Source: Desulfuromonas sp. TF (GTDB lineage: Bacteria > Desulfobacterota > Desulfuromonadia > Desulfuromonadales > ATBO01). Taken from it: a DNA stretch of 64,000 bases. Location of the stretch: NCBI RefSeq assembly GCF_000472285.1, contig NZ_KI421413.1, forward strand, positions 38,087 to 102,086, written 5' to 3'. Shown in pieces: positions 2,188-64,000 of the stretch (its first letter is position 1; each line of letters starts with the position of its first letter). The position numbers and the translations under genes were made by a program. The notes beneath the pieces are model-generated. The model ran no database searches, was not told the origin of the DNA, and worked only from the letters and a program-made list of their open reading frames with translations.

Positions 2188-2188
2188 G

Positions 2189-2431
2189 ATGAAGGGTTCT
2201 GACGACGTGCGAAAAGTGATTATCGATGAATTCCGCTGTAAAGGATGTGCTTTGTGTACGGTTGCATGTCCCCGAAAGCTGATTCTGATGAGCGAAAAAA
2301 TCAACAAACAGGGGTTTCTGCCGGCGTTGATCTCTCAGGAAAACCTTGAGCGCTGCACCTCATGCGCCCTGTGCGGGCAGATGTGCCCCGACGTCGCCAT
2401 TTCCGTTTATCGCGCCAAGAAGTGGGGTTGA
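2189..2431 (+). CDS. korD: 2-oxoacid:ferredoxin oxidoreductase, delta (ferredoxin) subunit
   Basis: An 80-residue protein with two 4Fe-4S motifs, Cys17/20/23/27 and Cys56/59/62/66, typical of the small ferredoxin-like delta subunit. It passes electrons from the thiamine-diphosphate site to ferredoxin. It starts one base after the apgM stop and is followed directly by the alpha, beta and gamma subunits. The four-gene order D-A-B-C matches 2-oxoglutarate:ferredoxin oxidoreductases of anaerobes. The substrate (2-oxoglutarate or a branched-chain 2-oxoacid) is inferred, because subunit sequence alone does not fix it. Confidence 0.88.
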   Translation: MKGSDDVRKVIIDEFRCKGCALCTVACPRKLILMSEKINKQGFLPALISQENLERCTSCALCGQMCPDVAISVYRAKKWG

Positions 2432-2445
2432 AGGTGGAGAATGTT

Positions 2446-4271: not shown

Positions 4272-4285
4272 CCGAGGGTTTTTTC

Positions 4286-4840
4286 ATGCACTATGACGTA
4301 TTCATGGCCGGCTTCGGTGGCCAGGGGGTTCTGCTGATCGGCAACCTGCTGGCGTATGCCGCCATCCGGGAAGGGATGAACGCCTCCTATTTTCCGGCCT
4401 ACGGAGTGGAGAAGAGGGGTGGGGCGGCCACCTGCACGGTGGTGATTTCCGACGAGGAAGTCGGCTCGCCGATCATCGGTCGCCCCGCTGCGGCCCTTAT
4501 CTTCAATCCCCTTTCGATGGAGAAGTACTTCGGCAAGGTCAGACCGGGCGGTCTCTGTCTTGTCAACACCTCGTTGGTTGAGGACTTCGGGCAGGAGCGC
4601 GACGACATCGATATTCTGAGGATGCCGCTCAACGAGATGGCCCTTGAAGCCGGAGATGTCCGTCTGGTCAATATGGTGGCCCTCGGGGCCTATGCGGCAA
4701 AGATCCCGGTGGTCTCCCTTGACAGCCTCAAAGCCGCTCTTCACAACGCGCTGCCGGAGCGCAACCACCGGTTCATTCCCCTCAACATGCAGGCCATCGA
4801 TCTCGGTGCGAGCGCGGCGCAGGCAAAAGCGAAAGCATAG
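4286..4840 (+). CDS. korC: 2-oxoacid:ferredoxin oxidoreductase, gamma subunit
   Basis: A 184-residue gamma subunit with the glycine-rich GFGGQGVLLIG near residues 9-19, followed by YGVEKRGGAATCTV, both hallmarks of the POR/KOR gamma family. It completes a four-subunit oxidoreductase with the three genes before it. In anaerobes this enzyme either feeds reduced ferredoxin or runs reductively to fix CO2. Its stop codon lies inside a short intergenic repeat rich in CATAGG. Confidence 0.9.
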   Translation: MHYDVFMAGFGGQGVLLIGNLLAYAAIREGMNASYFPAYGVEKRGGAATCTVVISDEEVGSPIIGRPAAALIFNPLSMEKYFGKVRPGGLCLVNTSLVEDFGQERDDIDILRMPLNEMALEAGDVRLVNMVALGAYAAKIPVVSLDSLKAALHNALPERNHRFIPLNMQAIDLGASAAQAKAKA

Positions 4841-4866
4841 GTCTCATAAGTCCCATAGGACCTATG
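4836..4866. repeat. Short CATAGG-type repeat between korC and holC
   Basis: CATAGG (4836-4841) and CATAAG (4845-4850) are followed by the odd palindrome CATAGGACCTATG (4854-4866). The unit straddles the korC stop codon. It looks like one of the small dispersed intergenic repeats of this kind of genome; no second copy was seen in the window. Confidence 0.5.
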
Positions 4867-4885
4867 CACCCCCCCGGATATCGTT

Positions 4886-5305
4886 ATGACCCGAATCGAA
4901 TTCATCAGATTGAAGAAGCCTGAGAAAGCCAAGCATCTGTGCGATCTGGCGGAGGAATTCTTTCAGGCGGGCAAACGGGTTCTTGTCACCGTCCTCGATG
5001 AGAACCAGGGGGTGACCCTCGATCGCTTCATGTGGACCTGGCGCAAGGGTTCCTTCCTTCCCCACGCCCTCGACAACGGCGCCGTTGATTGCCTCGATGA
5101 GCCGGTGGTCATCGGCAGCTGCGACCGCAATCCCAACGGAGCGCGGATTCTGATCATGGGAAAGCCCTGCGATCCCGACTTTGTTCGCCAGTTCGAGCTG
5201 GCCATCGATTTTGCCGAACTTTACGACGGCGAGCTGGCGGATGCCTCTCGCAGGCGTTTCGTCCGATACCGGGAGATGGGTCTTGATCCCCGGATGCGCG
5301 AATAA
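4886..5305 (+). CDS. holC: DNA polymerase III chi subunit
   Basis: A 139-residue HolC-family protein. The pattern is characteristic: an N-terminal helix region (PEKAKHLCDLAEEFF), GKRVLVTVLDENQ, then WTWRKGSFLPHAL and the DEPVVIGS strand. Chi links the clamp loader to single-stranded DNA-binding protein at the replication fork. The ATG at 4886 is 45 bases after korC. The 3' end overlaps the inferred start of rsmE, so the two are probably translated from one message. Confidence 0.85.
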   Translation: MTRIEFIRLKKPEKAKHLCDLAEEFFQAGKRVLVTVLDENQGVTLDRFMWTWRKGSFLPHALDNGAVDCLDEPVVIGSCDRNPNGARILIMGKPCDPDFVRQFELAIDFAELYDGELADASRRRFVRYREMGLDPRMRE

Positions 5306-6050
5306 AGGGGGGGGCGGCAGCGTAGTCCGGCTGGATGCGGTCCCGGAGCTGGAGTCCCAGGTCTCCCTTTCGCCGATGGCCGCGGCGGCTCTGGAATGCT
5401 GGCAGGCACGTCAGGGGGAGATCTTCACGGTGGTCGACCCGGAGTTGAGTTTCTATCGGGCACGCTTGGGCGCGTTTGATGCCGTGGGAGGGGTGCTTCT
5501 CCCTTTCCACCGGTTCAACCGGCCCGTCGAGAGCCCCGTCGCCATCGAGGTCTACCAGGCCCTGCCGCAAAAAGAGCGTTTCGAACTGGTGCTGCAGAAA
5601 CTGACCGAAATCGGGGTTACCCGTATCGTCCCATACACCTCCAGTCATTCCACGACCCCGGAGGAGAGGGATGCCGGGCAGAAAAAGTCCCACCGCTGGC
5701 CCGAGGTCATTCTCCGCGCCGCCAGACAGTGCCGCCGCGCCATGCTTCCGGAATTGTCGCCGGTTCTCGATTGGGACGGCGCCATCTACGAAGCGAGTCA
5801 TGCCGACCTGAAACTGATGCTGTTCGAAGGCGAAGCTCAACTGACCCTCCGCGAAGCCCTGAAGGGAGTCAATGCCAACCGGATCGCCCTGCTGGTCGGC
5901 CCCGAAGGCGGCTTCACCGACGACGAGGTGGCGGATGCCCGAAAACTCGACTTTCTGCCGGTTTCCCTTGGACCGCGCATCCTGCGAACCGAATCGGCGG
6001 CCATCATCGGCGCGGCCCTGCTGCAGTATGAACTGGGTGATCTGGGATAA
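5283..6050 (+). CDS. rsmE: 16S rRNA (uracil-1498-N3)-methyltransferase
   Basis: An RsmE-family SPOUT methyltransferase. The C-terminal trefoil-knot motifs are clear: LLVGPEGGFTDDEV and SLGPRILRTESAAI. LPQKERFELVLQKLTEIGV marks the SAM-binding core, and a PUA-like domain lies before it. The start is a problem, because the usual MRRF-type N-terminus is missing. In this frame the best start is TTG 5283, inside the end of holC, giving 255 residues, close to the family norm. A G8 run at 5307-5314 just downstream invites a check for a sequencing indel. Confidence 0.82.
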   Translation: MIPGCANKGGGGSVVRLDAVPELESQVSLSPMAAAALECWQARQGEIFTVVDPELSFYRARLGAFDAVGGVLLPFHRFNRPVESPVAIEVYQALPQKERFELVLQKLTEIGVTRIVPYTSSHSTTPEERDAGQKKSHRWPEVILRAARQCRRAMLPELSPVLDWDGAIYEASHADLKLMLFEGEAQLTLREALKGVNANRIALLVGPEGGFTDDEVADARKLDFLPVSLGPRILRTESAAIIGAALLQYELGDLG

Positions 6051-6087
6051 CCTTTTCCGGATTTTTTCTTCAAAGAGTCAAAAATCC

Positions 6088-6202
6088 GCACGCAGATAAA
6101 ATCTGATCAAATCTGATAACTTCGGATAAAACATAAACCAAAAAGGGTTAAACTTGGTTAAACCGCTTTTCAATCCGCTTTTATCAGATTTTATCAGCGT
6201 GC
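6088..6202. repeat. MITE-like element with 20-base inverted ends
   Basis: The intergenic region between rsmE and trmJ is bounded by near-perfect inverted repeats: 6088-6107 pairs with 6183-6202 with one mismatch in 20. Inside, AAATCTGAT occurs twice near the left end, and GGTTAAAC occurs twice in the middle (6146-6162). The element is about 115 bases, AT-rich against GC-rich flanks, and has no coding capacity. Size, ends and composition fit a miniature inverted-repeat element or a REP-like sequence. No target-site duplication was identified. Confidence 0.6.
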
Positions 6203-6247
6203 AATGGTTTATGCCTTGATGGTTTCCCTTTTTACCTTGCAGGTTCC

Positions 6248-6991
6248 ATGAATCTTTCCAATATTTGCGTCATTCTCGTCGAGCCCCAGGGGCCGTTGAA
6301 TATCGGTTCTGTCTGCCGGGCCATGATGAATTTCGGTTTCAGCGACCTTCGCCTGGTCAATCCCCAGGTCGATCATCTGGTGGAAGATGCACGGCGCATG
6401 GCGGTCAAGGCTTCCCCCGTACTGGAAGCCGCCGCCGTCTTCAACGGGCTCGCCGATGCCTTGTCGGATTGCCAACTGGCCCTCGGCACCACTCGCCGGT
6501 TCGGGAAATACCGGGAGGATTTTCTTCATCCGGACGAGGCCGGCCGGTTTCTCCTGCCTTGGACGGAAAAAGGGCGGGTAGCCCTGGTTTTCGGCAGAGA
6601 GGACAAGGGACTCCTTACGGCCGAGCTCGACCTGTGCCAGCGATTCATCACCATTCCCACCACCGATGCACTGCCCTCCATGAACCTCTCTCAGGCCGTT
6701 TCCCTCTGCCTCTACGAAACGGCCAAGTCCCTTGGCGAGGCGAAAGGGATGACCCATGGGCGCAAGCGTCAGGCCACGGGGAAAGCCCTGGAAGGGATGT
6801 ATCGCCATATGAAACAGACTCTGCTTGATATCGATTATCTCGACTCCCAGAACCCCGAGCATATTCTTCGTTCCTTTCGACGCATTTTCGGCCGGGCTGG
6901 GCTGAACGACCGCGATGTTCGCATCCTCCAGGGACTGTGGAGCCGCATTGATTGGGTAGAGGCTGAGCGGCGGAAGAAAAGTGACGCGTGA
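6248..6991 (+). CDS. trmJ: tRNA (cytidine/uridine-2'-O)-methyltransferase
   Basis: A 247-residue SPOUT methyltransferase of the TrmH/TrmJ family, which methylates the 2'-O of position 32 in some tRNAs. Motif 1 is PQGPLNIGSVCRAMMNFG (about 13-30), motif 2 VALVFGREDKGL (111-122) and motif 3 LPSMNLSQAVSLCLYE (about 142-157). A C-terminal extension from about 165 is typical of TrmJ rather than TrmL. The ATG at 6248 follows GCAGG (6239-6243). The short repeat element lies immediately upstream. Confidence 0.87.
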   Translation: MNLSNICVILVEPQGPLNIGSVCRAMMNFGFSDLRLVNPQVDHLVEDARRMAVKASPVLEAAAVFNGLADALSDCQLALGTTRRFGKYREDFLHPDEAGRFLLPWTEKGRVALVFGREDKGLLTAELDLCQRFITIPTTDALPSMNLSQAVSLCLYETAKSLGEAKGMTHGRKRQATGKALEGMYRHMKQTLLDIDYLDSQNPEHILRSFRRIFGRAGLNDRDVRILQGLWSRIDWVEAERRKKSDA

Positions 6992-7018
6992 GGCATCACT
7001 GAATTTATCGAGAGAACA

Positions 7019-7414
7019 ATGACAAAAATAATTCAGACGGAAAACCTTCCCAACGGCATGAAGATCGAATTCATAAACTGCTCCAACCGCTACTATGGCG
7101 ATTACCACCGGGTGCGAATCGAGGTTCGCTGCATCTTTCCATTGACCCCTGCAGTCATCGAGCAACTTGCCGACTCTGATGCGGAGCGGGTGAACATTCG
7201 TAAAGTTCTGGGGGAAAGGTACGTCTACACCCAGGTTCTGGAAAAGATGGGAGTTCCCGGAGACGCTTTGGAGGAAACCAGCCGCAGCCTCATCGACTCC
7301 TTCACCGGAAGCACCTTTTCCTACATGGCGCAGCCCTCTTTCCCGCTTCGGCTCATCGTCAGGGAGCTGGCACGACGCAGCAAGGTTCATCGTCCCTTCC
7401 GGAACTCCCGATGA
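7019..7414 (+). CDS. Conserved hypothetical protein
   Basis: A 131-residue soluble protein I cannot assign to a named family. It is rich in charged residues and has no signal peptide, membrane segment or cysteine cluster. A conserved-looking N-terminus (LPNGMKIEFINCSNRYYGDYHRVRIEV) is followed by a helical C-terminal half. Its stop overlaps the rlmD start (ATGA, 7411-7414), so it is translationally coupled to an rRNA methyltransferase and follows a tRNA methyltransferase. A role near RNA modification is only a guess from position. Confidence 0.7.
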   Translation: MTKIIQTENLPNGMKIEFINCSNRYYGDYHRVRIEVRCIFPLTPAVIEQLADSDAERVNIRKVLGERYVYTQVLEKMGVPGDALEETSRSLIDSFTGSTFSYMAQPSFPLRLIVRELARRSKVHRPFRNSR

Positions 7415-8703
7415 TATTGGATCTGAACATCGATTCCCTGGCGTTTGGCGGCAGCGGGGTCGGGCGCCATGACGGCAAGGTGGTCTTCGTCCCTTTTACC
7501 GCTCCGGGCGATCTGATTCGCTGCCGGATCGTGCGGGAAAAAAAACGGTTCGCCGAGGGGGAAATCCTTGAGCTGATCGAGCCCTCTTCTGCAAGGCGAG
7601 AACCTCCGTGCCCTGTATTCGGCGTGTGCGGAGGCTGTCAATGGCAGCATCTGCCCTATGAGACGCAGAGCCGGTGGAAGGGGGAGATCTTTGCCGACAC
7701 CCTGCGGCGCCAGGGGGGAGGGGAAGAGGAGCTTCTGCGTCCCCTGGTGCGATCTTCCGAGGAATGGAACTACCGCAGCCGGGTTCAGTTCAAATGCCTG
7801 CAGACGGATAATGGTTTCGTAATGGGTTTTTATCGGCGTGGGAGCCATTTCGTCGTTGACATTGAGAATTGTCCGATTACCGCATCGCCGCTCAATGAGG
7901 CTCTTCACCTTTTCCGCCGATGGCTGCCGCAATCGCCCTGTCCGGAACGGATTCCACAGGTCGATATGGCCGTCGATGACGAGAATAAAGTCCGGATCGT
8001 CGTTCATGCCCTCGGTTCCGATCACGACGCACTCCGCGCCTTTCTCTCTCCACTGGCCGAAAGCGCCGGCTTTGCAATTTTCATTCAGACCGGGCGGAAG
8101 AGCACCATCATCCCCGTCGTCGGCGGTGAAGACCTGCATATCCATCCGCTTCCCGGAGGGTCTCTGCGCCTGGCATACGGTCCAGGCGGTTTCGCCCAGG
8201 TCAATCTGGAGCAGAACCGACGTCTTGTGGAGGGGGTGATTGCCGCGGCCGATCTGACCGGAGAGGAGAGGGTCCTCGATCTCTTCTGCGGCATGGGAAA
8301 TTTTTCCCTGCCGCTTGCCCAGAAGGCGAAAGAGGTAATCGGCGTGGAGGATTTCGAACCCGCCATAGAAAAGGCCAGGGACAATGCCCGGGAAAACGGC
8401 CTGAGCAATATGAGCTTTCATGCCCGCACCGCCGAAGGCGCCGCAGGGAAACTCGCCGGGGGCATGGGGCTGGATCTCGTCCTTCTCGACCCTCCCAGGA
8501 CCGGAGCCTACGAGGTGGTCAGGGATCTGCTTTCCGTCCGTCCGGCTAAAATCATCTATGTTTCCTGCGATCCGCCCACTCTCGCCAGGGATCTCAAGCC
8601 TCTGCTTCACGGAGGTTACCGCCTGATCTTCTCGACCCCTTTTGACCTGTTCCCCCAAACCCATCACACCGAAAGCCTGTCGCTTCTGATCAGGCAGGAT
8701 TGA
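7411..8703 (+). CDS. rlmD: 23S rRNA (uracil-1939-C5)-methyltransferase, RlmD/RumA family
   Basis: A 430-residue TrmA/RumA-type enzyme. An N-terminal TRAM domain covers about 1-58, then come iron-sulfur cysteines C67, C73 and C76 (in CPVFGVCGGCQWQHLPY) and the Rossmann fold with LDLFCGMGNFSLPLA. LLDPPRTGA and IYVSCDPPTLARDL (catalytic Cys) sit near the C-terminus. The fold and cofactor motifs are certain; choosing RlmD over RlmC or a related paralogue is by length and TRAM domain. Confidence 0.88.
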   Translation: MILDLNIDSLAFGGSGVGRHDGKVVFVPFTAPGDLIRCRIVREKKRFAEGEILELIEPSSARREPPCPVFGVCGGCQWQHLPYETQSRWKGEIFADTLRRQGGGEEELLRPLVRSSEEWNYRSRVQFKCLQTDNGFVMGFYRRGSHFVVDIENCPITASPLNEALHLFRRWLPQSPCPERIPQVDMAVDDENKVRIVVHALGSDHDALRAFLSPLAESAGFAIFIQTGRKSTIIPVVGGEDLHIHPLPGGSLRLAYGPGGFAQVNLEQNRRLVEGVIAAADLTGEERVLDLFCGMGNFSLPLAQKAKEVIGVEDFEPAIEKARDNARENGLSNMSFHARTAEGAAGKLAGGMGLDLVLLDPPRTGAYEVVRDLLSVRPAKIIYVSCDPPTLARDLKPLLHGGYRLIFSTPFDLFPQTHHTESLSLLIRQD

Positions 8704-8716
8704 CGCGTTGAGTCCA

Positions 8717-8744
8717 TTGGCGCATGGGCGATTGCTGTTATACT
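8717..8744 (+). promoter_or_regulatory. Possible sigma-70 promoter
   Basis: TTGGCG (8717-8722) and TATACT (8739-8744) are separated by 16 bases, about 47 bases before the ATG of the secreted protein at 8792. A reasonable but not strong match. Confidence 0.45.
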
Positions 8745-8791
8745 ATTAAAAATATTTCCCACTCAGTCTTTGACCGGATCGGAGGTGCTCC

Positions 8792-9433
8792 ATGTACAGG
8801 ATTGCACTATTGGTGGTAGTTCTGCTTTTTGCCGGAGCATCCTCTCTGGCAGCTGAAACACTTTCCATTGTTCCGGGCATTGCCCTGGAGGTGAACCTGC
8901 CCGGACAAAAGTGGCAGATGTCCCGTCAGGCGCCCGAGTTTCTCGTTCGAGAGACGGCCGAGCATCTCGAACATGAACTGGCGGATAAGGGCAAGCAGGT
9001 CGATGCCGAGAGTCTGAAGGCGGAGGCCGGCAAACGCCTTGCGGCCAACGAGTTATTCATATTCAATCCGGATAGCGGTGCGGTACTGACGATCGATTTC
9101 AGCCCCTTGAAAGAGAAGGAAAAAGCTCCCCGCGATCGCACCGTGGCCTCTTCGGCCCGATATGCAGGAGAGAGCCTGTCGAGTGAAGAGGGGATTGAAG
9201 GAGTGGAGAGTAAAACCGACAAGGTGAAAGTGGCCGGAGCGGGTTCCGCCTACCGGGTGAATGCCAGTTACCGGCAACATGGCGATCCGATGAAATTCAC
9301 AGGAATCATCGGCTTTGCAGAGCCCTATTGGTTCTTCTTCTACTATACGGACCCTCTGCGCGATCCCGGCGACGCCGAGGAGATGGGTCGGATATTGGAC
9401 GCTCTGGTCCTGAAACCTGGAGGGGGTAATTAG
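8792..9433 (+). CDS. Secreted hypothetical protein
   Basis: A 213-residue protein with a clear Sec signal peptide (MYRIALLVVVLLFAGASS, likely cut after SLAA at about 21). The mature part starts with a beta-rich stretch, has a charged helical segment at about 55-85 and an aromatic strand (PYWFFFYYTDP) near the C-terminus. No family was recognised. GGAGGT lies about 7 bases before the ATG. It stands between rlmD and the rimP operon with its own possible promoter, so it is probably a single-gene unit. Confidence 0.75.
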   Translation: MYRIALLVVVLLFAGASSLAAETLSIVPGIALEVNLPGQKWQMSRQAPEFLVRETAEHLEHELADKGKQVDAESLKAEAGKRLAANELFIFNPDSGAVLTIDFSPLKEKEKAPRDRTVASSARYAGESLSSEEGIEGVESKTDKVKVAGAGSAYRVNASYRQHGDPMKFTGIIGFAEPYWFFFYYTDPLRDPGDAEEMGRILDALVLKPGGGN

Positions 9434-9443
9434 ATTTTTTTAC

Positions 9444-9472
9444 TTGCAATCGGAACTTTCTCGTGGTATCAG
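9444..9472 (+). promoter_or_regulatory. Possible promoter of the rimP-nusA-infB operon
   Basis: TTGCAA (9444-9449) and TATCAG (9467-9472) are spaced by 17 bases, upstream of the leader hairpin. The -10 match is partial. Confidence 0.35.
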
Positions 9473-9498
9473 TTAGCTGTTATTTCATAGTTCACAGT

Positions 9499-9527
9499 AA
9501 AAAGTGGGCCCTTCGCTCACTTTTTTT
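9499..9527 (+). terminator. Intrinsic-terminator-like leader hairpin before rimP
   Basis: AAAAAGTGGG (9499-9508) pairs with the segment ending CTCACTTTTT (9516-9525, one G-U pair) around a CCCTTCG loop, and a run of seven T follows the stem. It sits between the possible promoter and the rimP start, so it could act as an attenuator of the whole operon. Hairpins of this kind before rimP-nusA operons have been described in other bacteria; function here is inferred. Confidence 0.55.
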
Positions 9528-9546
9528 ATTTGCAGAGGTGTCAAGC

Positions 9547-10035
9547 GTGTCGCAGGATACGACTCTGGAAAGAATTCGCGGCCTGGTTTCTCCGATTTTG
9601 CAGAGCATGTCTTTCGAACTTGTGGAGCTCGAATACAAGCCGGAAGGCAGAAACTGGGTCGTGCGCCTGTTTATCGACAAGCCGGGCGGCATCACCCTCG
9701 ACGATTGTGTCGATGTCAGCCGGGAGGTCGGCGCTCTCCTTGAGGTAGAGGATGTGATCGAAACTTCGTATCGGCTTGAGGTTTCCTCGCCGGGGCTGGA
9801 CCGGCCGTTGAAGAAAGCGCAGGATTATGAGCGCTTTTGCGGAGAGCGGGTCAAAATCAAAACCCATGAAAAGCTTGATCCCGACAACCGGGGCTACGAG
9901 CGAAAAACATTTGTTGGCAAATTGCTGGGGTACGAGGACGGCAGGGTGAGAATTCTCCAGGTCGACAAGAAGGGGGGAGAGATCGTTCTTTCTCTGGAGG
10001 ATATAGCCAATGCTAATCTGGAGCCCGAGTTTTAA
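9547..10035 (+). CDS. rimP: Ribosome maturation factor RimP
   Basis: A 162-residue RimP protein needed for 30S subunit maturation. Family features: ELVELEY near residue 25, RLFIDKPGGITLDDCVDVSREV, and EVSSPGLDRPL, followed by an SH3-like C-terminal domain. GTG 9547 is preferred over GTG 9538 because AGAGGTG (9534-9540) is then a well-placed ribosome binding site and the length fits. It heads the classic rimP-nusA-infB operon and lies behind the leader hairpin. Confidence 0.9.
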   Translation: MSQDTTLERIRGLVSPILQSMSFELVELEYKPEGRNWVVRLFIDKPGGITLDDCVDVSREVGALLEVEDVIETSYRLEVSSPGLDRPLKKAQDYERFCGERVKIKTHEKLDPDNRGYERKTFVGKLLGYEDGRVRILQVDKKGGEIVLSLEDIANANLEPEF

Positions 10036-10137
10036 ACTCCTGCCTGGCGCAACCATGCGCGGGCAAAAGCAGAATAAAAAGGCCGAGACCGCGTGGTGAC
10101 TAACTCTCGGACAGACAGTTACAGGGGGTACTAGGGA

Positions 10138-11409
10138 ATGGTAGTGAATCTTAATCATATTCTTGATCAGGTAGTGAAGGACAAAGGCATTGATCGTGGC
10201 GTTCTGGTCGAGGCGCTTGAGTCCGCGGTATTGTCGGCTGCCAATAAGAAATACCGCAACACACGGGATCTGGAAGCCCATTACAATGATGAGATGGGCG
10301 AAGTCGAGCTTTTTGAGTTCGTCACCGTCGTTGAGGAGGTTCACGACTCATACAAGGAGATCGATCTGGAGGAAGCTCGCGAAATCGATCCCGATGTCGA
10401 GGTCGGCGACTCTCTCGGGATGAAGATGGATGCCAGCAACTTCAGCCGCATCGCCGCCCAGACCGCCAAACAGGTGATCATACAGAAAGTTCGCGAGGCC
10501 GAGCGCGAGGGGGTCTACAATGAATTCAAGGACCGTCTCGGTGAACTGGTCAACGGCATTGTCCGCCGCTATGAGCGAGGCGACCTGATCGTCGACCTGG
10601 GAAGGGCCGAGGCTCTGCTCCCGCATCGTGAGCAGGTGCCCCGCGAAAATTATCGCCAGGGAGACCGGGTCAGGGCCTATATATCCGACGTTCGTCTGTC
10701 GCCGAAAGGTCCGCAGATCATTCTCTCGCGTACTCATCCCGGAGTGGTCGCCGCCTTGTTCTATTCCGAAGTGCCCGAGATAGCCGAAGGCATTGTGGAA
10801 ATCAAGTGTGTCGCCAGGGAACCGGGGAGCCGGGCAAAGATTGCGGTGGTTTCCCATGATCCCGATGTCGATCCGGTTGGCGCCTGCGTGGGAATGCGCG
10901 GATCCCGCGTCCAGAATGTGGTGTCCGAACTGCGTGGTGAAAAAATCGATATCATCAACTGGACTCCGGATATCGGAAGGTTTGCCTGTTCCGCTCTTTC
11001 CCCTGCCGAAGTCACCCGGGTTTATGTCGACAACGAGGAACAGGCCCTGGAGATTATCGTTCCGGACGACCAGCTTTCGCTGGCCATCGGTAAAAAAGGG
11101 CAAAACGTCAGGCTTGCAGCCAAGCTGACCGGCTGGAAGATCGACATCAAGAGCGAGACACGGGCGGCGGAATCCGAACTCGAGGAACTGCGCCAAGCCG
11201 AGGGGGATGAGGCGACTTCCGAAATCGATGAATCTCCATCCTATAGTCGGGATGAGCTCTATGCCCTGGCCAAGGAATACAATCTTGCCGGACGCAGCAC
11301 CATGACCAAGGAAGAGCTTGTCCAGCGTCTGGGCGAGTTGGGAGTCCTTGAGAAAACTGAACCGGTGGCGGAAACCGCCGAACCGGCCGAGGAAGAAGAA
11401 CAGGGTTAA
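10138..11409 (+). CDS. nusA: Transcription termination/antitermination factor NusA
   Basis: A 423-residue NusA. The N-terminal polymerase-binding domain covers about 1-125, an S1 domain about 130-200 ([25 protein letters not shown]), and two KH domains follow, with [15 protein letters not shown] and [17 protein letters not shown] as GXXG motifs. Instead of the acidic repeats of enterobacterial NusA, the C-terminus after about 360 has a short SAP/Rho-N-like segment ([11 protein letters not shown] then [12 protein letters not shown]) and an acidic tail. A GGGG-rich site (10125-10136) precedes the ATG. It binds RNA polymerase and nascent RNA. Confidence 0.93.
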
Positions 11410-11412
11410 CCA

Positions 11413-12012
11413 TTGTCTTCATCCGGAAATAAGGCGCAGCGCACCTGTCTGGGCTGCCGGGTCGTTTGCGATCAGGACCAGGTTGTCCGCTACGTTCTTT
11501 CACCTCAGGGGGAGGTTCTTGTCGATTATCGGCGCAAACTACCGGGTCGGGGGGCGTATACGTGCCTTGAACGGTCCTGCATCGAGACAGCGGTCCGGCG
11601 GAATCAGTTCGATCGGGCATTCAAGGGACGGGCAGGAAGCCGTCCCGACGAAGGGGAGCTCACTGCCGCTCTTGCCGACCAGATCCTGGAGCGGATTGTC
11701 GCTCTTCTGGGAATGGCGCGCAAATCGGCCAAAGCCGTCTCCGGAAGCAATCTGGTTCTGAGTGCGCTCGGAGGTCACGGCCGGATCGCTTTTGTTCTCC
11801 TGGCCGAAGACGTTTCCGCCGGAATTGCCGATAAGGTCATCGGCAAGGCGGACAGGATGGAAATTCCATGCTTCCGCCTGCTGACCAAGGATTTCATGGG
11901 GCAGGTGATGGGCAAGGGAGAACGCAGTGTGATCGCACTTGCTTCAGGCCCGCTTGCTAAAGCTATAATGGTAGAGCTGGTGAGATATAAGCAAATCGTA
12001 GGGGAGAGTTGA
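11413..12012 (+). CDS. Fused YlxR (DUF448) and L7Ae-like RNA-binding protein
   Basis: A 199-residue two-domain protein. Residues 1-80 form a YlxR domain ([19 protein letters not shown] and PGRGAYTC). About 90-199 is an L7Ae/L30e/S12e-like domain ([16 protein letters not shown] then VLLAEDVS). In Firmicutes these are separate genes (ylxR, ylxQ) in the same operon position between nusA and infB. The start is TTG 11413, three bases after the nusA stop. The gene overlaps the infB ATG by one base. A role in rRNA or RNA-structure binding is inferred from the domains. Confidence 0.85.
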
Positions 12013-14867
12013 TGGGAAAGATACGGGTATACGAATTGGCACAAAAACTGGGCGTGGAAAATAAGGATCTTCTGGATCGTCTTGAGGACGCGGGTATTGA
12101 TGCCAAAAGCCATATGAGCTTTCTGGAAGAGGACGATATTCGTAAGCTTGAGGACGACTCGACCCCATCGGTGGAGAAGGTTGAAGAAAAGCTGGTCAAA
12201 CCCGGCTTGATCCGCCGCCGGCGCAAGGAGGTGCCCCAGCCCGCTGTCCCCGAAGAGGCGCCTCTGGCCGCGGCTGAATTAGCCCCGACTGCCGTCGAAA
12301 AGCCGGTAGAGACGCCAGTAGAAGAAGCCGAAAAAGAGGCTGCGACGGTCTCTGTCAAGGAACCGGCGTCCACCCGCGAAATGGAGACCGCCCCTTCAGA
12401 TGCTGAGGCGGCAGCTGAAAAGGCTGAACAGAAGCCTGTAGCTGCTGCCGAAGGAGCCGCGAGGCCGGTCGATAAGATCAAAGCCGAGGCTCTCCCGATC
12501 CCCAAAGCCCCGGCGGCTAAAAAGGAAGAAACTCCCAAGGCGGCTCCTCCGAAAGCAGCCGAGAAGGTGACTCCGTCACGGGCCAAGATCCTTGGCCGCG
12601 TCGAGCTCCCCCAGGCTGCCGCTCCGACACCCCGGGGAGCAGCGCCTGGCGGTGAACGTCCGCGCGGCGAGCGTCCGCGTACGGATCGACCCGGAGCACC
12701 TCCCGCCAGGGAACGTACCGGAGCACCTCCCGCCAGGGAACGTACCGGAGCACCTCCCGCCAGGGAACGTACCGGAGCGCCTCCCGGCAGGGAACGTACC
12801 GGAGCGCCTCCCAGGGAAGGACGACCCGCGCCCGGGTCCCGGCCGAGCCGTACAGCCGCCGCGCCCACTGTTCCGACCACTGCTCCCGACGAGTTGTTTC
12901 CCGGCAAGGAGGCGAGAGGCGGAAAGAAGAAGAAAAAAGGTAAAGGTGCGGACTATAGCGAGGCGGCGGGCCGTGTAGAAGCTGAGAAACGCCGTAGCCG
13001 TCGCGAGGTTTTTGAGCCGGATCGCGGCGATCGCTATCGCAAGGGTCGCAAGTCCGCAAGACTCACGAAAAAGACCGAGGTCACCGTTTCCAAAGCTATC
13101 AAGAGGATCATCCGCATCAGTGACGTGATCACGGTCGGTGAACTGGCCAAGAGGATGGGTGTTAAGGCTAACGACCTGATCAAGGAACTCATGCGCCAGG
13201 GCCAGATGGTGACCATCAACCATCCCCTCGACTTCGAGTCGGCGGCGATCCTCGCTTCGGAATTCAGCTACGAGGTCGAGAACGTCGCCTTCGATGAAGT
13301 GACCATTCTCGATCATGCCGGCCTGAAGGAAGGGGAGGAAGAGAAGCCTGAAGATCTTAAAACCAGACCTCCCGTGGTAACCATCATGGGACATGTCGAT
13401 CACGGAAAGACCAGCCTGCTCGATGCCATTCGCACCACCGACGTCACCGCCGGGGAAGCCGGCGGCATCACACAGCACATCGGCGCCTATGACGTGGAAC
13501 TGGACGGACGGAAAATCAGCTTCCTGGATACCCCGGGTCACGAAGCCTTCACCGCCATGCGTTCCCGAGGCGCTCAGGTTACCGACATCGTCGTCCTGGT
13601 CGTGGCGGCGGACGACGGCGTCATGCCCCAGACCAAGGAGGCGATCAATCACTCCAAGGCTGCCGGCGTTCCGATCATCGTCGCCATCAACAAAATGGAC
13701 AAGCCCGACGCCAATCCCGACCGGGTCAAGCAGGAGTTGACTGAATTTCAGCTGGTCCCCGAAGAGTGGGGGGGCGACACCATTTTTGTGGAGGTTTCCG
13801 CCAAGCAGAAGACCAACATCGATCAGATTCTCGAGATGATCCTGCTGCAGGCCGAAGTCATGGATCTCAAGGCCAACCCCAACAAACGCGCCAAAGGGGC
13901 CATTATCGAAGCGAGACTGGACAAGGGGCGGGGGCCCGTGGCCACGGTCCTTGTGCAGGAGGGCACCCTCAAGGTCGGAGATCCGATCGTGACCGGCGTT
14001 CACTACGGCCGGGTTCGGACCATGATCAACGATCGCGGCGAGCGCCTCGAGGAGGCGGGTCCGTCCTGCCCCGTCGAGGTAACCGGACTTTCCGGCGTTC
14101 CAGATGCCGGGGATACCTTTCATGCCGTGGAGGATGAAAAGACCGCTAAAGACGTGGCCCAGCACCGGCAGCAGAAGCTGCGGGAGGCTGAGTTGGCAAA
14201 AACCAGCAAGATTTCCCTGGAACAACTCTATGCCCGCATCCAGGAAGGGGACGTCAAGGAGCTCAAAGTTATCCTCAAGGGCGACGTCCAGGGTTCGGTG
14301 GAAGCGGTCAAGGATTCGCTCTCCAAGCTTTCCACGGATGCCTGCCGTCTTATCGTGATTCACACGGGTGTCGGCGGCATCATCGAAAGTGACGTCTCCC
14401 TGGCTTCGGCTTCGGATGCCATAGTTCTCGGCTTCAACGTGCGGCCCGAACCAAAGGCCGCCGCCCTTGCCGAGACCGAAGGGGTGGATATCCGCCTCTA
14501 CAACATCATCTATGACGCGGTTGCCGATATTCGGAATGCCATGGAAGGACTCCTTGCACCTACTCTGAGGGAAAAGGCTCTGGGACGGGTGGAGGTCCGC
14601 GAAACATTCAGCGTCTCCAAGGTGGGGACCATCGCCGGATGCTATGTGCTCGATGGGAAAGTGCTGCGCGGCGCCCAGGTACGGCTGGTTCGCGACAATG
14701 TGGTCGTCTGGCAGGGCAAGATGAGTTCGCTCAAGCGCTTCAAGGATGATGCCCGGGAAGTTGCCGCCGGTTACGAATGCGGCATCGGCCTCGAAAATTA
14801 CAATGACCTCAAGATCGGGGATATCATCGAAGTCTTCGAAATGGAAGAGGTGAAGACGATTCTCTGA
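12012..14867 (+). CDS. infB: Translation initiation factor IF-2
   Basis: A 951-residue IF-2. The N-terminal IF2_N domain ([20 protein letters not shown]) is followed by a long low-complexity Ala/Pro/Glu linker to about 330, a second IF2_N-like domain, and the GTPase domain with [12 protein letters not shown] (about 459), [12 protein letters not shown] and SAK. Domains II-IV follow. It places initiator tRNA on the 30S subunit. The linker contains a 9-residue repeat, listed separately. The ATG at 12012 overlaps the previous stop by one base and has GGGGAGA before it. Confidence 0.95.
12691..12813 (+). repeat. 27-base tandem repeat inside infB
   Basis: Four copies of a 27-base unit (12691-12717, 12718-12744, 12745-12771, 12772-12798) and a partial fifth encode GAPPARERT-type repeats in the IF-2 linker. 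The first three copies are essentially identical at DNA level and the fourth carries a few changes, so the array is recent and could vary in copy number. Confidence 0.85.
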
Positions 14868-56752: not shown

Positions 56753-56827
<75 letters not shown>

Positions 56828-57865: not shown

Positions 57866-60712
57866 ATGTCACCTTCCGAGCAGGAGGCGAGACAACAGAT
57901 CGATGGACTGCTTATCGCCTGCGGCTGGCGGGTGCAGGACGCCTCCGCGGTCAACATCCATGCCGGCCGCGGGGTGGCGATCCGGGAGTTTTCTCTTCCG
58001 GGTTACGGATATGCCGACTACCTCCTCTACGTCGACGGCAAAGCCGCCGGGGTGATCGAGGCAAAGAAGGTCGGCACCACCCTGACAGGCGTCGAGGTGC
58101 AGTCGGCCCGCTACACCCAGGGGCTCCCTGAAGGCCTGCCGTGTTGGCACAACCCGCTCCCTTTCTGCTATGAATCGACAGGCATCGAGACCCGCTTCAC
58201 CAACGGCCTAGATCCCGAGCCCCGCTCGCGCGGCGTCTTTGCCTTCCACCGGCCGGAGACCCTGGCGGCGTGGCTGGATGAGGCTCTGGATTTTCATGGG
58301 CTTCCGGCCGATATGGGCGGCGCGTCCTATGCGGCAGAAAGTCAGCCGAAAACCTTCCTTGCCCGGCTGAGATACATGCCCGAGTTGGTGACCGAGGGAC
58401 TCTGGCCGGCGCAGATCAAGGCGATCGATAACCTCGAAGTCTCCCTGCGCGACAACCGCCCCCGGGCCCTGATCCAGATGGCGACCGGCTCGGGGAAGAC
58501 CTTTACCTCGATCAACTTCATCTACCGCCTGATCAAGTTCGCCGGGGCCCGGCGGGTCCTCTTCCTGGTCGACCGCGCCAACCTTGGGCGGCAGACCCTC
58601 AAGGAGTTCCAGCAGTACGTCTCCCCCTACAACAACTTCAAGTTCACCGAAGAGTACATCGTCCAGAATCTCTCCTCCAACCGCCTCGACCGCACGGCGC
58701 GGGTCTGTATCTGCACGATCCAGCGGCTCTACTCCATGCTCAAGGGGCGGGAACTGGCGGAGGAGCTGGACGAGGAGTCGGCGGCGGAGCTGGGGAGCCT
58801 GTTCAAGGAGCCGGAGCCGATCGAGTACAACCCCGACTTTCCCATCGAGGACTTCGACATCATCGTCACCGACGAGTGCCACCGCTCCATCTACAACCTC
58901 TGGCGGCAGGTCCTCGAATACTTCGACGCCTACCTCATCGGCCTCACCGCCACGCCCAGCAAGCAGACCTTCGGCTTCTTCCACAAGAACCTGGTCATGG
59001 AGTACGGCCATCCCCAGGCGGTGGCCGACGGGGTCAACGTCAACTATGACGTCTACCGCATTCGCACGCAGATCGGAGATGCGGGCGGCAGGGTCGAAGC
59101 CGGCTACTACGTCGACAAGCGGGACCGCGAGACCCGCGAGGTGCGCTGGGAGCAGCTCGACGACGATTTCGCCTACGACGCCCGGCAGCTCGACCGCGAC
59201 GTGGTCGCCGTCGACCAGATCCGCACGGTGGTGCAGACGTTCCGGGACAAGCTCTTCACCGAGATCTTCCCGGGGCGCTCCTGGGTCCCCAAGACCTTGG
59301 TCTTCGCCAAGGACGACTCCCACGCCGAGGACATCGTCCGGATCGTGCGCGAGGAGTTCGGCAAGGGGAACGAGTTCGCCCAGAAGATCACCTACCGCAC
59401 CACCGGCGAGAAGCCCGAGAACCTCATCGCCGCCTTCCGCACCAGCCCCATGCCCCGCATCGCCGTCACCGTCGACATGATCGCCACCGGCACCGACATC
59501 AAGGCGGTGGAGTGCGTCTTCTTCATGCGAATGGTTAAATCAAGGGCCTACTTCGAGCAGATGAAGGGGCGCGGGGTGCGCATCATCAACGACAACGACC
59601 TCCAGGCCGTCACCCCCGACGCCGTGACCAAGGACCATTTCGTTATCGTCGACGCCGTCGGCGTCTGCGAGCAGGACCAGACCGACTCCCTCCCCATGGA
59701 GCGCAAGAAGAACGTCGGCTTCGAGAAGCTCCTCCAGGCCGTCGCCTTCGGCAACTGCGAGATCGACGTCATCTCCTCGGTGGCGGCGCGGCTGGCCCGG
59801 CTGGAGAAGAAGCTGACGTCCCAGGAGCACCGGCAGGTGGAGGAAATCACCGGCGGCACGTCCCTGAAGACGCTGACCGGCGACCTGGTCGCCGCCCTGG
59901 AGCCGGACCGACACATCGCCGAGGCGCAAAAGGCCTCCGGCTCCGCCGAGCCGGACGCCAGACAGATCCGGCAGGCGGCGGCGCGGGTTCTCGGCGATGC
60001 GGCCAAGCCCCTGTGCGACCCGATGCTGCGGGAGCTTCTCTTCGCCATCAAGAAGAAGAACGAGCAGATCATCGACACGGTCAGCACCGATACGGTGATC
60101 TTCTCCGGCTTTACCGAGGAGAAGGCCAAGGGGGTGATCGAATCTTTCGAGCGGTTCATCGAGGAGAACCGGGACGAGATCACCGCCCTGCAGGTGCTTT
60201 ACAGCAAACCCTTCAAGCAGCGCTTGAGGTTTGAGGACGTGCGCGAGCTGGCCGAGAAGCTGGTGACGCAGGTCGAGCAGCTGCGCATCTACCAGACCCA
60301 TCCGCAGGGATGGGAGAAGCGCGTGCCCGATGAGCTGTGGGCGGCCTACCGGAAGCTGGCGGCGGGCAAGGTGCGCGGTGCTGCTGCCAACCATATTTTG
60401 ACCGATCTGGTGTCGCTGGTGCGCTTCGCCATGCATCAGGAGAACGAGCTGGTGCCGTTTCCGGAGAAGGTGCAGGTGAACTTCCGGGCGTGGGTGGAGC
60501 AGCAGCAGGCGAGCGGGCGGCGGTTTACCGACGAGCAGCGCAAGTGGCTGGAGATGATCCGGGATCACATCGCCGCCAACCTCCAGATCGAGACGGACGA
60601 TTTCGATTATGCGCCGTTTGCGCAGGAGGGTGGAATTGGGAAGGTTTGGCAGTTGTTCGGGGAAGATTTGAATCTGATTCTTGATGAATTGAATGGAACT
60701 CTGGCAGCGTAG
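57866..60712 (+). CDS. hsdR: Type I restriction enzyme R subunit
   Basis: A 948-residue HsdR. The N-terminal nuclease has D51 in GYGYADYLLYVDG and E65-A-K67 in GVIEAKK (PD-(D/E)xK). The motor has IQMATGSGKTF (Walker A, about 206-216) and TDECHRSIYN (motif II, about 333-342), then conserved RecA-like motifs to about 590, and a helical C-terminal domain. It translocates and cuts unmodified DNA. AGTAGAGGG precedes the ATG. Composition is GC-rich like the core genome. It is followed by a small membrane protein and hsdS. Confidence 0.93.
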   Translation: MSPSEQEARQQIDGLLIACGWRVQDASAVNIHAGRGVAIREFSLPGYGYADYLLYVDGKAAGVIEAKKVGTTLTGVEVQSARYTQGLPEGLPCWHNPLPFCYESTGIETRFTNGLDPEPRSRGVFAFHRPETLAAWLDEALDFHGLPADMGGASYAAESQPKTFLARLRYMPELVTEGLWPAQIKAIDNLEVSLRDNRPRALIQMATGSGKTFTSINFIYRLIKFAGARRVLFLVDRANLGRQTLKEFQQYVSPYNNFKFTEEYIVQNLSSNRLDRTARVCICTIQRLYSMLKGRELAEELDEESAAELGSLFKEPEPIEYNPDFPIEDFDIIVTDECHRSIYNLWRQVLEYFDAYLIGLTATPSKQTFGFFHKNLVMEYGHPQAVADGVNVNYDVYRIRTQIGDAGGRVEAGYYVDKRDRETREVRWEQLDDDFAYDARQLDRDVVAVDQIRTVVQTFRDKLFTEIFPGRSWVPKTLVFAKDDSHAEDIVRIVREEFGKGNEFAQKITYRTTGEKPENLIAAFRTSPMPRIAVTVDMIATGTDIKAVECVFFMRMVKSRAYFEQMKGRGVRIINDNDLQAVTPDAVTKDHFVIVDAVGVCEQDQTDSLPMERKKNVGFEKLLQAVAFGNCEIDVISSVAARLARLEKKLTSQEHRQVEEITGGTSLKTLTGDLVAALEPDRHIAEAQKASGSAEPDARQIRQAAARVLGDAAKPLCDPMLRELLFAIKKKNEQIIDTVSTDTVIFSGFTEEKAKGVIESFERFIEENRDEITALQVLYSKPFKQRLRFEDVRELAEKLVTQVEQLRIYQTHPQGWEKRVPDELWAAYRKLAAGKVRGAAANHILTDLVSLVRFAMHQENELVPFPEKVQVNFRAWVEQQQASGRRFTDEQRKWLEMIRDHIAANLQIETDDFDYAPFAQEGGIGKVWQLFGEDLNLILDELNGTLAA

Positions 60713-60728
60713 TAAGGAGGATGTTGGA

Positions 60729-61058
60729 ATGTCCGATCAAGCCGAAGCACAGACACCACAAATTGTCGCTCCTGAGCAGGAGATGATTGCAATTACCGAC
60801 TTGTTGAAGGGGGTTACTGAGCCATTGGCCAAGAGTCAGGATATTGCCCAGCAGGAAGCGACGAAAAGAGCAGAGATTCTTGGCCGGGTTACAAGCAAGT
60901 TCCTGATGTATGTGTTCAGTGTAGCGGTGCTCGTTGTGCTTCTCGCCGGCATGGCATTATTCAAGGGTGAAGTGCAGTTGACTGAAAAGATAATAATTGC
61001 TCTCCTTGGGTTCTTGGGTGGTTTTGGTTTCGGTCGCGGATTTGGTAAGGGGCAGTAG
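60729..61058 (+). CDS. Two-helix membrane protein inserted between hsdR and hsdS
   Basis: A 109-residue protein with a soluble, Glu/Gln-rich N-terminal helix region (about 10-55) and two membrane helices at about 58-78 and 87-104, the second ending in a glycine-rich FGFGRGFGKGQ. AAGGAGG (60714-60720) is an excellent ribosome binding site. It starts 16 bases after hsdR, and its stop overlaps the GTG start of hsdS by one base, so it is translated as part of the hsd operon. No family was recognised. Its composition is lower in GC than hsdR. Confidence 0.78.
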   Translation: MSDQAEAQTPQIVAPEQEMIAITDLLKGVTEPLAKSQDIAQQEATKRAEILGRVTSKFLMYVFSVAVLVVLLAGMALFKGEVQLTEKIIIALLGFLGGFGFGRGFGKGQ

Positions 61059-62788
61059 TGGTAAACGCTTGGACGGAAGTGAAAATTGAGGAGATTGCTG
61101 AGGTCAATCCGCGCCTTGACAAGAAAGATATCCCAGATGACCTGCTGGTTTCTTTCGTGCCGATGCCCGCAGTAGGCGCAGGAGATGGTTCAATTGACGT
61201 CTTGGCTGTAAAACCATTCAGTGAAGTAAAGAAGGGCTTTACCAGCTTTCAGCAAGGTGATGTGCTATTTGCCAAGATTACGCCGTGCATGGAAAATGGC
61301 AAGATGGCGGTCGTTCCCGAAGTCAAGAACGGATACGGGTTTGGTTCGACTGAGTTCCATGTGTTGCGGCCGAAGCCGGGAGTCAACGCCCGCTATCTTT
61401 ACTTCTATGTTTCCAGTAATAAGTTTCGCGGCGATGCCGAACACCAGATGACCGGCGCGGTCGGGCAGAAGCGCGTGCCGACGCAATTCCTGCGTGATGC
61501 GACTATCCCTCTTGCCCCCCTCAACGAACAAACCCGCATCGTCGCCGAAATCGAAAAACAATTCTCCCGCCTCGACGAAGCCGTCGCCAACCTCAAGCGC
61601 GTCAAGGCCAACCTCAAGCGCTACAAAGCCGCTGTCCTCAAGGCCGCCGTCGAAGGCAAACTCACCGAAGAATGGCGCAAGCAGCATCCCGATGTCGAAC
61701 CGGCCGACAAGCTGCTGGAGCGGATTCTTGAAGAGCGGCGTGCGAATTGGCAAGGGAGGGGGAAGTACAAGGAGCCTGTTGCGCCGGACACGAGCGGGTT
61801 GCCGGAGTTGCCGGAGGGGTGGGTTTGTGTCTCAATTGGCGACGTTTTTGAAGTCTGCGTTGGTGCGACACCAAGTAGAGTCAAGCCTGAGTACTGGAAT
61901 GGTTCAGTCCCTTGGGTAAGTAGCGGAGAGGTCGCCTTCTGTAGAATTCGATCCACTAGAGAGACAATAACCGATCTTGGCTTAAAAAGCTCTTCAACGA
62001 AATTGCACCCTCCGGGCACAATCTTACTAGGGATGATAGGAGAGGGCAAAACAAGGGGTCAGGTAGCAATTCTCGACATTGAAGCGTGTAATAACCAGAA
62101 CTCAGCGGCGATTCGAGTTTCGGATACGGAAATTGTGTCTGAGTACATCTACAGCTTTCTTGAGCAAGAATACGAACGTACTCGGCTCCGTGGTTCTGGA
62201 GGGAACCAGCCCGCGCTCAACAAAAGCCGAGTAGAACAAATTCCTTTTTCTCTCCCACCTATTGAGGAACAACACCAAATCGTCGCCGAAGTCGAACGCC
62301 GCCTCTCCATCGTCGCCGATGCCGAAGCGCAAGTCGACGCCAACCTCCGCCGCGCCGCCCGCCTGCGCCAGTCGATCCTCAAACAAGCCTTCTCCGGCCA
62401 ACTCGTCTCCCAGGACCCAAACGACGAGCCGGCCAGCGTGCTGCTGGGACGGATACGGTCGCAGCAACCCCCGCAAACCAAAGAACCGGCCGCTCGCCAA
62501 CGCAAGCACAGACTCCCTGCACCCAGGACAGGTGCACCCAGGACAGGTGCACCTGCGACCAATCCGCTGCCGATGGTCGCCGAAGCCCCCGCCCCCTACG
62601 GCGACGCCATCATCGCCCGCATCCTCGCCACAATGCAACACGGCCGCGAATACGCCCGCGCTGATCTGGTCGACCCGCTCGGTTTGACTGCTGGCCAGTG
62701 GAATACGGCGATTCAGGAGTTGAAGCGGGTAGGAAAGGTGCGGCAAGTTGGGGAGAGGCGTGGGGCGCGGTATGTAGTCTCTGGGTAG
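61058..62788 (+). CDS. hsdS: Type I restriction specificity subunit with C-terminal extension
   Basis: A 576-residue HsdS, longer than the usual 400-460. Two target-recognition domains (about 1-150 and 245-395) are each followed by a conserved helix region: EIEKQFSRLDEAVANLKR and EVERRLSIVADAEAQ. After about 480 comes a Pro/Arg-rich linker with a short tandem repeat (GAPRTGAPRT) and a domain of about 65 residues (IIARILATMQHG to RRGARYVVSG) that looks like a winged helix. GTG start at 61058 overlaps the membrane-protein stop. It should direct HsdM and HsdR to a bipartite target. Confidence 0.9.
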   Translation: MVNAWTEVKIEEIAEVNPRLDKKDIPDDLLVSFVPMPAVGAGDGSIDVLAVKPFSEVKKGFTSFQQGDVLFAKITPCMENGKMAVVPEVKNGYGFGSTEFHVLRPKPGVNARYLYFYVSSNKFRGDAEHQMTGAVGQKRVPTQFLRDATIPLAPLNEQTRIVAEIEKQFSRLDEAVANLKRVKANLKRYKAAVLKAAVEGKLTEEWRKQHPDVEPADKLLERILEERRANWQGRGKYKEPVAPDTSGLPELPEGWVCVSIGDVFEVCVGATPSRVKPEYWNGSVPWVSSGEVAFCRIRSTRETITDLGLKSSSTKLHPPGTILLGMIGEGKTRGQVAILDIEACNNQNSAAIRVSDTEIVSEYIYSFLEQEYERTRLRGSGGNQPALNKSRVEQIPFSLPPIEEQHQIVAEVERRLSIVADAEAQVDANLRRAARLRQSILKQAFSGQLVSQDPNDEPASVLLGRIRSQQPPQTKEPAARQRKHRLPAPRTGAPRTGAPATNPLPMVAEAPAPYGDAIIARILATMQHGREYARADLVDPLGLTAGQWNTAIQELKRVGKVRQVGERRGARYVVSG

Positions 62789-62805
62789 AGATAAATGGAG
62801 GTAAC

Positions 62806-64000
62806 ATGGGGAAAAATTCATTTGCAGAAGTGGCCTTAAATCCATCGAATCCGAAATGGAATCAATCTGTTTCTCGCGTATCCGAACTTTATCGGAAAAC
62901 GGATGACATAAGGTCAGAATTTGCAAGAGATTTTACACGGATACTTCACTGCAATGCATATCGAAGACTGAAGCATAAGACTCAAGTTTTCTTTGCCACT
63001 CAAAACGACCATATTTGTACAAGGATTGAACACGTAAACCATGTATCGTCTGTTAGTCAGACAATTTCGCAGTATCTTGGTCTAAATACAGAATTAACAA
63101 GCGCGATAGCAATTGGACACGACCTTGGCCATGCGCCTTTTGGCCACGCTGGCGAGACGGTTATCAAAAAAATAGCAATTGATCATATAGGTGACAGCTT
63201 TTGGCACGAAAGGAATAGCCTTCGTTTTGTTGATGAAATTGAGACGTTGCCAGACAGTAGTGGACGGGATACAAACATGAATCTCACTTATGCAGTGAGA
63301 GATGGAATAGTTTCTCATTGTGGTGAGGTTGACGAGACAGGCCTACGGCCTAGGGATATGGCCATTGATTTGACAGAAATTGTAAAGCCAAATCAATATG
63401 CTCCGTTCAGTTGGGAAGCTTGTGTTGTCAAGGTTTCTGACAAGGTTGCTTACTTAGGGAGGGACATTGAGGATGCAATTAGGATTGGGATTTTGACTTA
63501 CAGCGAACTTAAAAAGCTTAAGCAAATTTCCGGATCTCCTCTGAAAGAAATCAACAACACAATAATAATGCATGACTTTATTGTTGATTTGTGTAATTCA
63601 AGTTCTCCTGAAATAGGGATCTCCTTTTCAGAGAAGCACTTGGAATTAATAAATAATATTAAAAAATTCAATTATGAAACCATCTATTTTCACCCTCGAC
63701 TTGAAAATTATAAAAAATATGTGGAACTTGTTATTCGATCTATTTTTGAGAGCCTTAAAGTGTGCTACAACAAGATGGAAACGCCAAATGTTATAAAATC
63801 TCATTCGAAATTTTATCCTAAATTTTCAGAATATTTTTTCGCATGGCTTAACAAATATTCGAATGCTAGCACCGCAAGGGGGGAGACGGGACGACTAAAT
63901 AACAAAGTGATATATGACATGAATAATGAACGGCAATATCACCAAGCAATAATCGATTTCATAACGGCAATGAGCGATCAATTTGCAATCAAATCTTATA
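62806..64000 (+). CDS. HD-domain dGTP triphosphohydrolase-like protein (partial, runs off the window)
   Basis: The open frame runs from ATG 62806 (GGAGG at 62797-62801) to the end of the window with no stop, 398 codons so far. The HD set is visible: H76 in RIEHVNHV, H105-D106 in GHDLGHAPFGHAGE, and a later Asp in VSDKVAYLGRDIEDA. This combination is that of dGTPases, which hydrolyse dNTPs. Base composition is strikingly AT-rich against hsdR and the core genes, pointing to transfer. It follows hsdS by 17 bases. The C-terminal part is unseen. Confidence 0.82.
   Translation, partial: MGKNSFAEVALNPSNPKWNQSVSRVSELYRKTDDIRSEFARDFTRILHCNAYRRLKHKTQVFFATQNDHICTRIEHVNHVSSVSQTISQYLGLNTELTSAIAIGHDLGHAPFGHAGETVIKKIAIDHIGDSFWHERNSLRFVDEIETLPDSSGRDTNMNLTYAVRDGIVSHCGEVDETGLRPRDMAIDLTEIVKPNQYAPFSWEACVVKVSDKVAYLGRDIEDAIRIGILTYSELKKLKQISGSPLKEINNTIIMHDFIVDLCNSSSPEIGISFSEKHLELINNIKKFNYETIYFHPRLENYKKYVELVIRSIFESLKVCYNKMETPNVIKSHSKFYPKFSEYFFAWLNKYSNASTARGETGRLNNKVIYDMNNERQYHQAIIDFITAMSDQFAIKSY

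Follow-up and report, generated by a model that had tools for sequence, protein, structure and literature searches.

A dGTPase-family gene in the variable slot of a Desulfuromonas type I restriction operon is predicted to be anti-phage cargo

Unrelated defence genes are known from the interior of type I restriction-modification (RM) operons, PrrC among them, and anti-phage dGTPases were reportedly described by Tal et al. in 2022. DarTG2 is embedded between hsdS and hsdR in a type I operon of EPEC (PMC12255303), TgvAB lies within the type I cluster of V. cholerae VPI-2 (PMC11411939), and the insertion site in such operons was described as a possible recombination hotspot (PMC12255303, PMC11411939). 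Embedded defences, the hotspot idea and defence against phage by dGTPases (PMC12265719) are therefore already published. Here we analyzed a window of 64,000 nucleotides (C2:38087-102086) from the 4.4-Mb genome of Desulfuromonas sp. TF, at the right end of which a dGTPase gene lies inside a type I operon. We give a probability of roughly 0.6 to the reading, built from sequence comparison, that this gene is accessory anti-phage cargo of an hsdR-hsdS-[cargo]-hsdM operon, imported in a cassette with hsdS and acting through dGTP depletion.

The operon is read from the forward strand. It starts with hsdR (57866-60712), coding for a restriction subunit of 948 aa with an EcoEI-like C-terminus (Pfam ResIII, EcoEI_R_C and HSDR_N; PADLOC REase_I), followed in the R-S slot by an ORF for a small membrane protein of 121 aa (60693-61058), and by hsdS (61058-62788), which has a GTG start and encodes a specificity subunit of 576 aa (Pfam Methylase_S, E=1.9e-34; PADLOC Specificity_I, E=7.7e-168). 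The 121-aa protein had no match in Pfam, PADLOC or NCBIfam; a relative of 115 aa was found at the same position in genome G118 (phmmer match in locus L156). Two copies of the 15-nt repeat cacccaggacaggtg are present in the part of hsdS encoding the C-terminal linker (62530-62560), a possible length-variable site. Beyond the window, the operon continues, after the dGTPase gene, in the coordinates of locus L009 (window position = L009 + 55913), with a 5' remnant of hsdM (8126-8379) and genes for a 142-aa membrane protein (8440-8868), a zinc-dependent phospholipase C-like protein (8904-9911), a lipoprotein-like protein (9896-10357) and Fic (10370-11005), before an intact hsdM downstream (11247-12749). 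The gene of the 142-aa protein, right after the hsdM remnant, has 36% GC and no family match, and is likely another import. HsdR, HsdS and HsdM are thus encoded on one strand with non-RM genes between them, as in type I operons with embedded cargo. We considered the tRNA-Gly gene at 56753 as an integration site, but its 3' end has no second copy in L009 and hence no attachment repeat was seen.

The dGTPase gene begins with an ATG at 62806, preceded by a strong Shine-Dalgarno sequence (GGAGGT, 62797-62802, by direct reading). As the first-pass annotation had reported, it is co-oriented with hsdS and separated from its end at 62788 by 17 bases. Reading the genome beyond position 64000, we found the stop 20 bases past the window end (C2:102106, the equivalent of window position 64020); the frame is unbroken, with no frameshift, and encodes 404 aa. 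The product exceeded the gathering scores of Pfam HD (E=3.2e-7) and HD_assoc (E=3.1e-8) and passed the cut-off of TIGR01353 dGTP_triPase (158.2 bits against 152.35). The HD/metal residues H76, H105, D106 and D212 and the catalytic H114 and E117 are conserved without exception in an alignment of 51 relatives, so that the dGTPase identity proposed from the HD motifs stood up well, as did the conservation of the residues on which it depended. The spacing of H105, D106, H114 and E117 equals that of the HD motif and H126/E129 in the anti-phage dGTPase CloA (comparison with PMC12265719). The best PDB sequence match was the Thermus dNTPase 2dqb (E=3e-36). An AlphaFold2 model made from 51 sequences had a mean pLDDT of 91.5, and in Foldseek its best match was 2dqb (TM 0.63-0.67); the next ranks went to 9p8w, an anti-phage dGTPase of Shewanella, then to a dGTPase from V. 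cholerae and to CloA. The slot gene is predicted to encode a catalytically intact dGTP triphosphohydrolase that would hydrolyse dGTP, and its standing as a complete, non-housekeeping HD-type dGTPase of the type I locus is confirmed.

Family models for defence were less telling. The NCBI model for anti-phage dGTPases (NF041026) gave the slot protein 123.5 bits, far under its cut-off of 400 and below the scores of the genome's two ordinary dGTPases. The PADLOC dGTPase model behaved similarly, with 257 and 363 bits for the ordinary copies versus 182 for the slot dGTPase. We therefore rejected this PADLOC match as evidence of defence and took the location of the gene as the informative feature.

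Several features mark the slot dGTPase as an accessory import, as judged from sequence. Its GC content is 37.8%, about 5 standard deviations below the 58.5 +/- 3.9% of 1.2-kb stretches of the window; the genome has two further dGTPases (C2:509903 and C2:122430), both exceeding equivalog cut-offs; and the lineage is rare in the class, being found, among 277 class genomes, only here and in G191 (56% identity). An ordinary dGTPase is present in 256 of these 277 genomes (E<=1e-20). A more distant relative occurs in G186, where a nucleoside 2-deoxyribosyltransferase-like gene directly precedes the dGTPase gene and transposases follow it (L042, 8806-10558), a possible nucleotide-pool pair. In genome contigs, we found at least 42 full-length relatives with 43-58% identity, which among the matches listed were mostly from Bacillota, Bacteroidales (Bacteroidota) and Treponema (Spirochaetota). 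These 42 listed relatives, the slot dGTPase and the G191 copy form one clade (100/100). In 19 of 22 sampled genomes, drawn from the genome contigs loci, the family member is the sole dGTPase, so that in these it is probably resident; most of the family looks like resident housekeeping enzymes. Plasmids and phages contained no close relative of the slot dGTPase, only general dGTPases with at most about 36% identity, and a search of viral contigs returned two distant matches.

The slot that holds the gene, between hsdS and hsdM (S-M), was then compared between genomes. The window-type system, recognised by HsdM identities of 77-88%, is present in about 30 class genomes. Both these and a further set of more distant loci from the phylum preserve the order hsdR-hsdS-[variable genes]-hsdM. 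Contents of the S-M slot differ across the 39 loci in which one contig carries both hsdS and hsdM, as expected of variable cargo, and at least 20 of the 39 hold a cargo gene recognised by PADLOC, counting direct hits and phmmer relatives of scanned genes with part of the slot genes scanned. In class and phylum relatives the cargo includes Hachiman HamAB, DRT UG19, AbiEii, a PsyrA/ShosA-like pair, PDC-M04AB, RhuM and Fic, as well as Septu PtuA, HEC-01A, PDC-M11A, PDC-M31A and PDC-S02. The evidence from PDC families may be partly circular, since these are candidates perhaps chosen for their embedding in defence loci, while that from Hachiman, Septu and AbiEii is not. Among the loci read, a dGTPase occupies the S-M slot in the window locus only. 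The defence role proposed earlier for the dGTPase thus gained indirect support, because a low-GC accessory import sits in a slot that in the operon of relatives holds defence genes. Defence by dGTP depletion is the likely, predicted outcome: dGTP hydrolysis would starve the replication of phages that escape restriction, and we rate such a function, independent of the restriction complex, as somewhat better than an even bet.

Traces of how such cargo may have entered were found next to it. Behind the dGTPase gene lies a start fragment of hsdM of 254 nt, which shares 94% identity with the intact gene and reaches 7 nt upstream of the start codon. Its 247 coding nucleotides are 94.7% identical to the intact hsdM, compared with at most 89.1% for hsdM of other genomes, and its start codon is located 25 bases past the dGTPase stop, a normal spacing for an operon junction. 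Querying each of 44 loci having upstream sequence with its own hsdM (E<=1e-15), we found same-strand hsdM pieces in the upstream slot region of eight (L009, L162, L168, L173, L187, L189, L192 and L193), with a second piece in L173 at 4e-7. All nine pieces derive from nucleotides 1-314 of the gene of about 1,490 nt (p about 8e-7 under uniform placement). The remnants closely follow cargo genes in the window locus, L168 and L173, the last with the layout S-[PDC-M04AB]-M'-[RhuM]-M'-[Fic]-M. Remnants of hsdS were absent from the 39 slots save for one 26-nt match. The mirror image was seen on the other side, where hsdR 3' remnants stand directly before hsdS in L180 (10670-10746), L187 (10977-11186 and 9887-10010) and L188 (9709-9916), all numbered in the hsdR-to-hsdM orientation; in L187, hsdR', hsdS and hsdM' lie in this order between two cargo sets. 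Self-matches near the hsdR ends of L157, L163, L169, L170 and L183 amounted to short repeats, in several cases present on both strands, and were left out of the count. The R-S gap of these five loci and of L181, with short repeats near the hsdR end, contains a recurring related gene of about 200-230 aa, which by eye looks like a REP-associated tyrosine transposase.

The simplest account suggested by this pattern of hsdM 5' and hsdR 3' remnants is that hsdS and its cargo are exchanged together as one cassette, whose joins can be imprecise. We propose, tentatively and at a little under even odds, that the exchangeable unit has its limits in the hsdR 3' end and the hsdM 5' end, that one event swaps both specificity and defence, and that imprecise events stack remnants recording successive layers, represented in the window locus by the dGTPase and Fic. 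Such exchange would usually take place through hsdR and hsdM by homologous recombination, and a clean event would leave no trace. An imprecise join would leave hsdM 5' or hsdR 3' pieces in place and older cargo behind, so that cargo becomes stacked. A close relative would formerly have carried the dGTPase directly upstream of an hsdM, in the operon order R-S-dGTPase-M, and the gene would have entered the present genome within an hsdS-plus-cargo cassette whose right end fell inside the 5' part of another hsdM. The 254-nt remnant would be the surviving right end of this incoming cassette, and the dGTPase layer would now adjoin a second layer with Fic. In the open-access literature, we found no description of a truncated hsdM in such a role, of the hsdM-hsdR remnant pattern, or of this dGTPase lineage as RM cargo.

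It had also been suggested that restriction and nucleotide depletion are paired in this locus. The dGTPase identity and its location in a type I locus hold; a dedicated pairing does not. Searching with phmmer and hmmsearch, seeded from two different type I systems, we found HsdR, HsdM or HsdS in the available flanks of none of the 42 close homologues among the matches listed, and in the class sample one of the 25 S-M slots read held a dGTPase, which led us to reject a recurrent hsdS-dGTPase pair. Most of the family indeed consists of apparent housekeeping homologues with no restriction neighbours, the exceptions being the imported copies, namely the window gene, G191 and L046. In G191, a distant class member, the dGTPase ends a type I operon of another subtype (M-RhuM-S-R-YgjP-dGTPase), and in L046, from a Chloroflexi MAG, a DrmD-like SNF2 helicase, type III Mod, Res and the dGTPase follow in series (1828-11218). 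Family copies therefore adjoin RM genes at three known places at least, a small number that was noticed after the fact. L111 has the top local identity to the slot dGTPase among the matches listed (66% over 146 aa) and adjoins DNA methyltransferases. At first it looked like a further RM-linked case, but it was set aside, being truncated and grouping with a resident clostridial copy (L050). Its dGTPase gene is cut after about 146 codons beside several DNA methyltransferase genes (7006-11337), as if RM genes had inserted into a resident dGTPase. A common origin of the RM-linked copies was rejected for the set including L111, which does not form one clade (p-AU 0.012).

These data bear on other accounts of the gene. 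It could be a resident-type dNTP-pool enzyme caught by chance with inserted DNA, neutral or mildly useful and with no part in defence. The resident look of its family, the sole dGTPase in most of the genomes sampled, agrees with this, as do the ordinary genes and few PADLOC defence matches flanking the 42 listed homologues. We nevertheless hold such a passenger to be unlikely: the host genome encodes two dGTPases besides this one, the slot copy is intact with its strong ribosome-binding site and operon spacing, relatives fill the same slot with defence genes, and two other family members (G191 and L046) end RM operons.

A functional link to restriction, for instance by clearing nucleotides from cut phage DNA or by triggering through restriction intermediates, would explain why the gene adjoins hsdS in the same orientation and why other copies come last in RM operons (type I in G191, type III Mod-Res-dGTPase in L046). 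RM linkage also probably arose more than once, given that the RM-linked set with L111 is not one clade. However, the RM types differ between the linked copies and hsd genes are missing from the flanks of the 42 listed homologues. Moreover, the slot takes unrelated cargo, so that adjacency to hsdS needs no coupling, and we regard such a link as quite improbable. Even harder to credit is control by a partner in the style of Clover CloA/CloB, with the 121-aa or the 142-aa small membrane protein as regulator. CloA does require a regulator against its toxicity (PMC12265719), and the operon does hold these two unexplained small membrane proteins. No nucleotidyltransferase such as CloB was found among the locus proteins, though, the gene of the 142-aa protein is separated from the dGTPase gene by the hsdM remnant and so probably came with another layer, and the anti-phage SpdGTPase is active alone (PMC12265719). 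The preferred reading remains that of an accessory anti-phage cargo gene.

For the route by which defence genes enter type I operons, the remnants offer direct sequence traces of the process. Their positions behind cargo and before hsdS predict that specificity and cargo move jointly; if the cassette reading is true, a strain changes its DNA specificity and its accessory defence in a single event. The dGTPase lineage becomes a candidate defence cargo, and uncharacterised slot genes become candidate defences.

Among dGTPases of solved structure, the Thermus dNTP triphosphohydrolase 2dqb comes nearest in both sequence and fold, yet identity is about 25% and we know of no restriction link for that enzyme. 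Anti-phage dGTPases (SpdGTPase of Shewanella putrefaciens, NF041026) share the HD fold and catalytic residues with the slot dGTPase, and likely dGTP depletion too, but form a separate lineage. Clover CloA is likewise an HD dGTPase with identical motif spacing, whereas Clover has the CloB nucleotidyltransferase and the present locus has no CloB-like gene. Like the DarTG2, TgvAB and PrrC loci, the window locus carries an unrelated defence gene, here a predicted one, among hsd genes on the same strand. It differs from them in its order R-S-cargo-M, in its dGTPase cargo, and in the hsdM 5' and hsdR 3' remnants by which earlier junctions appear to be marked.
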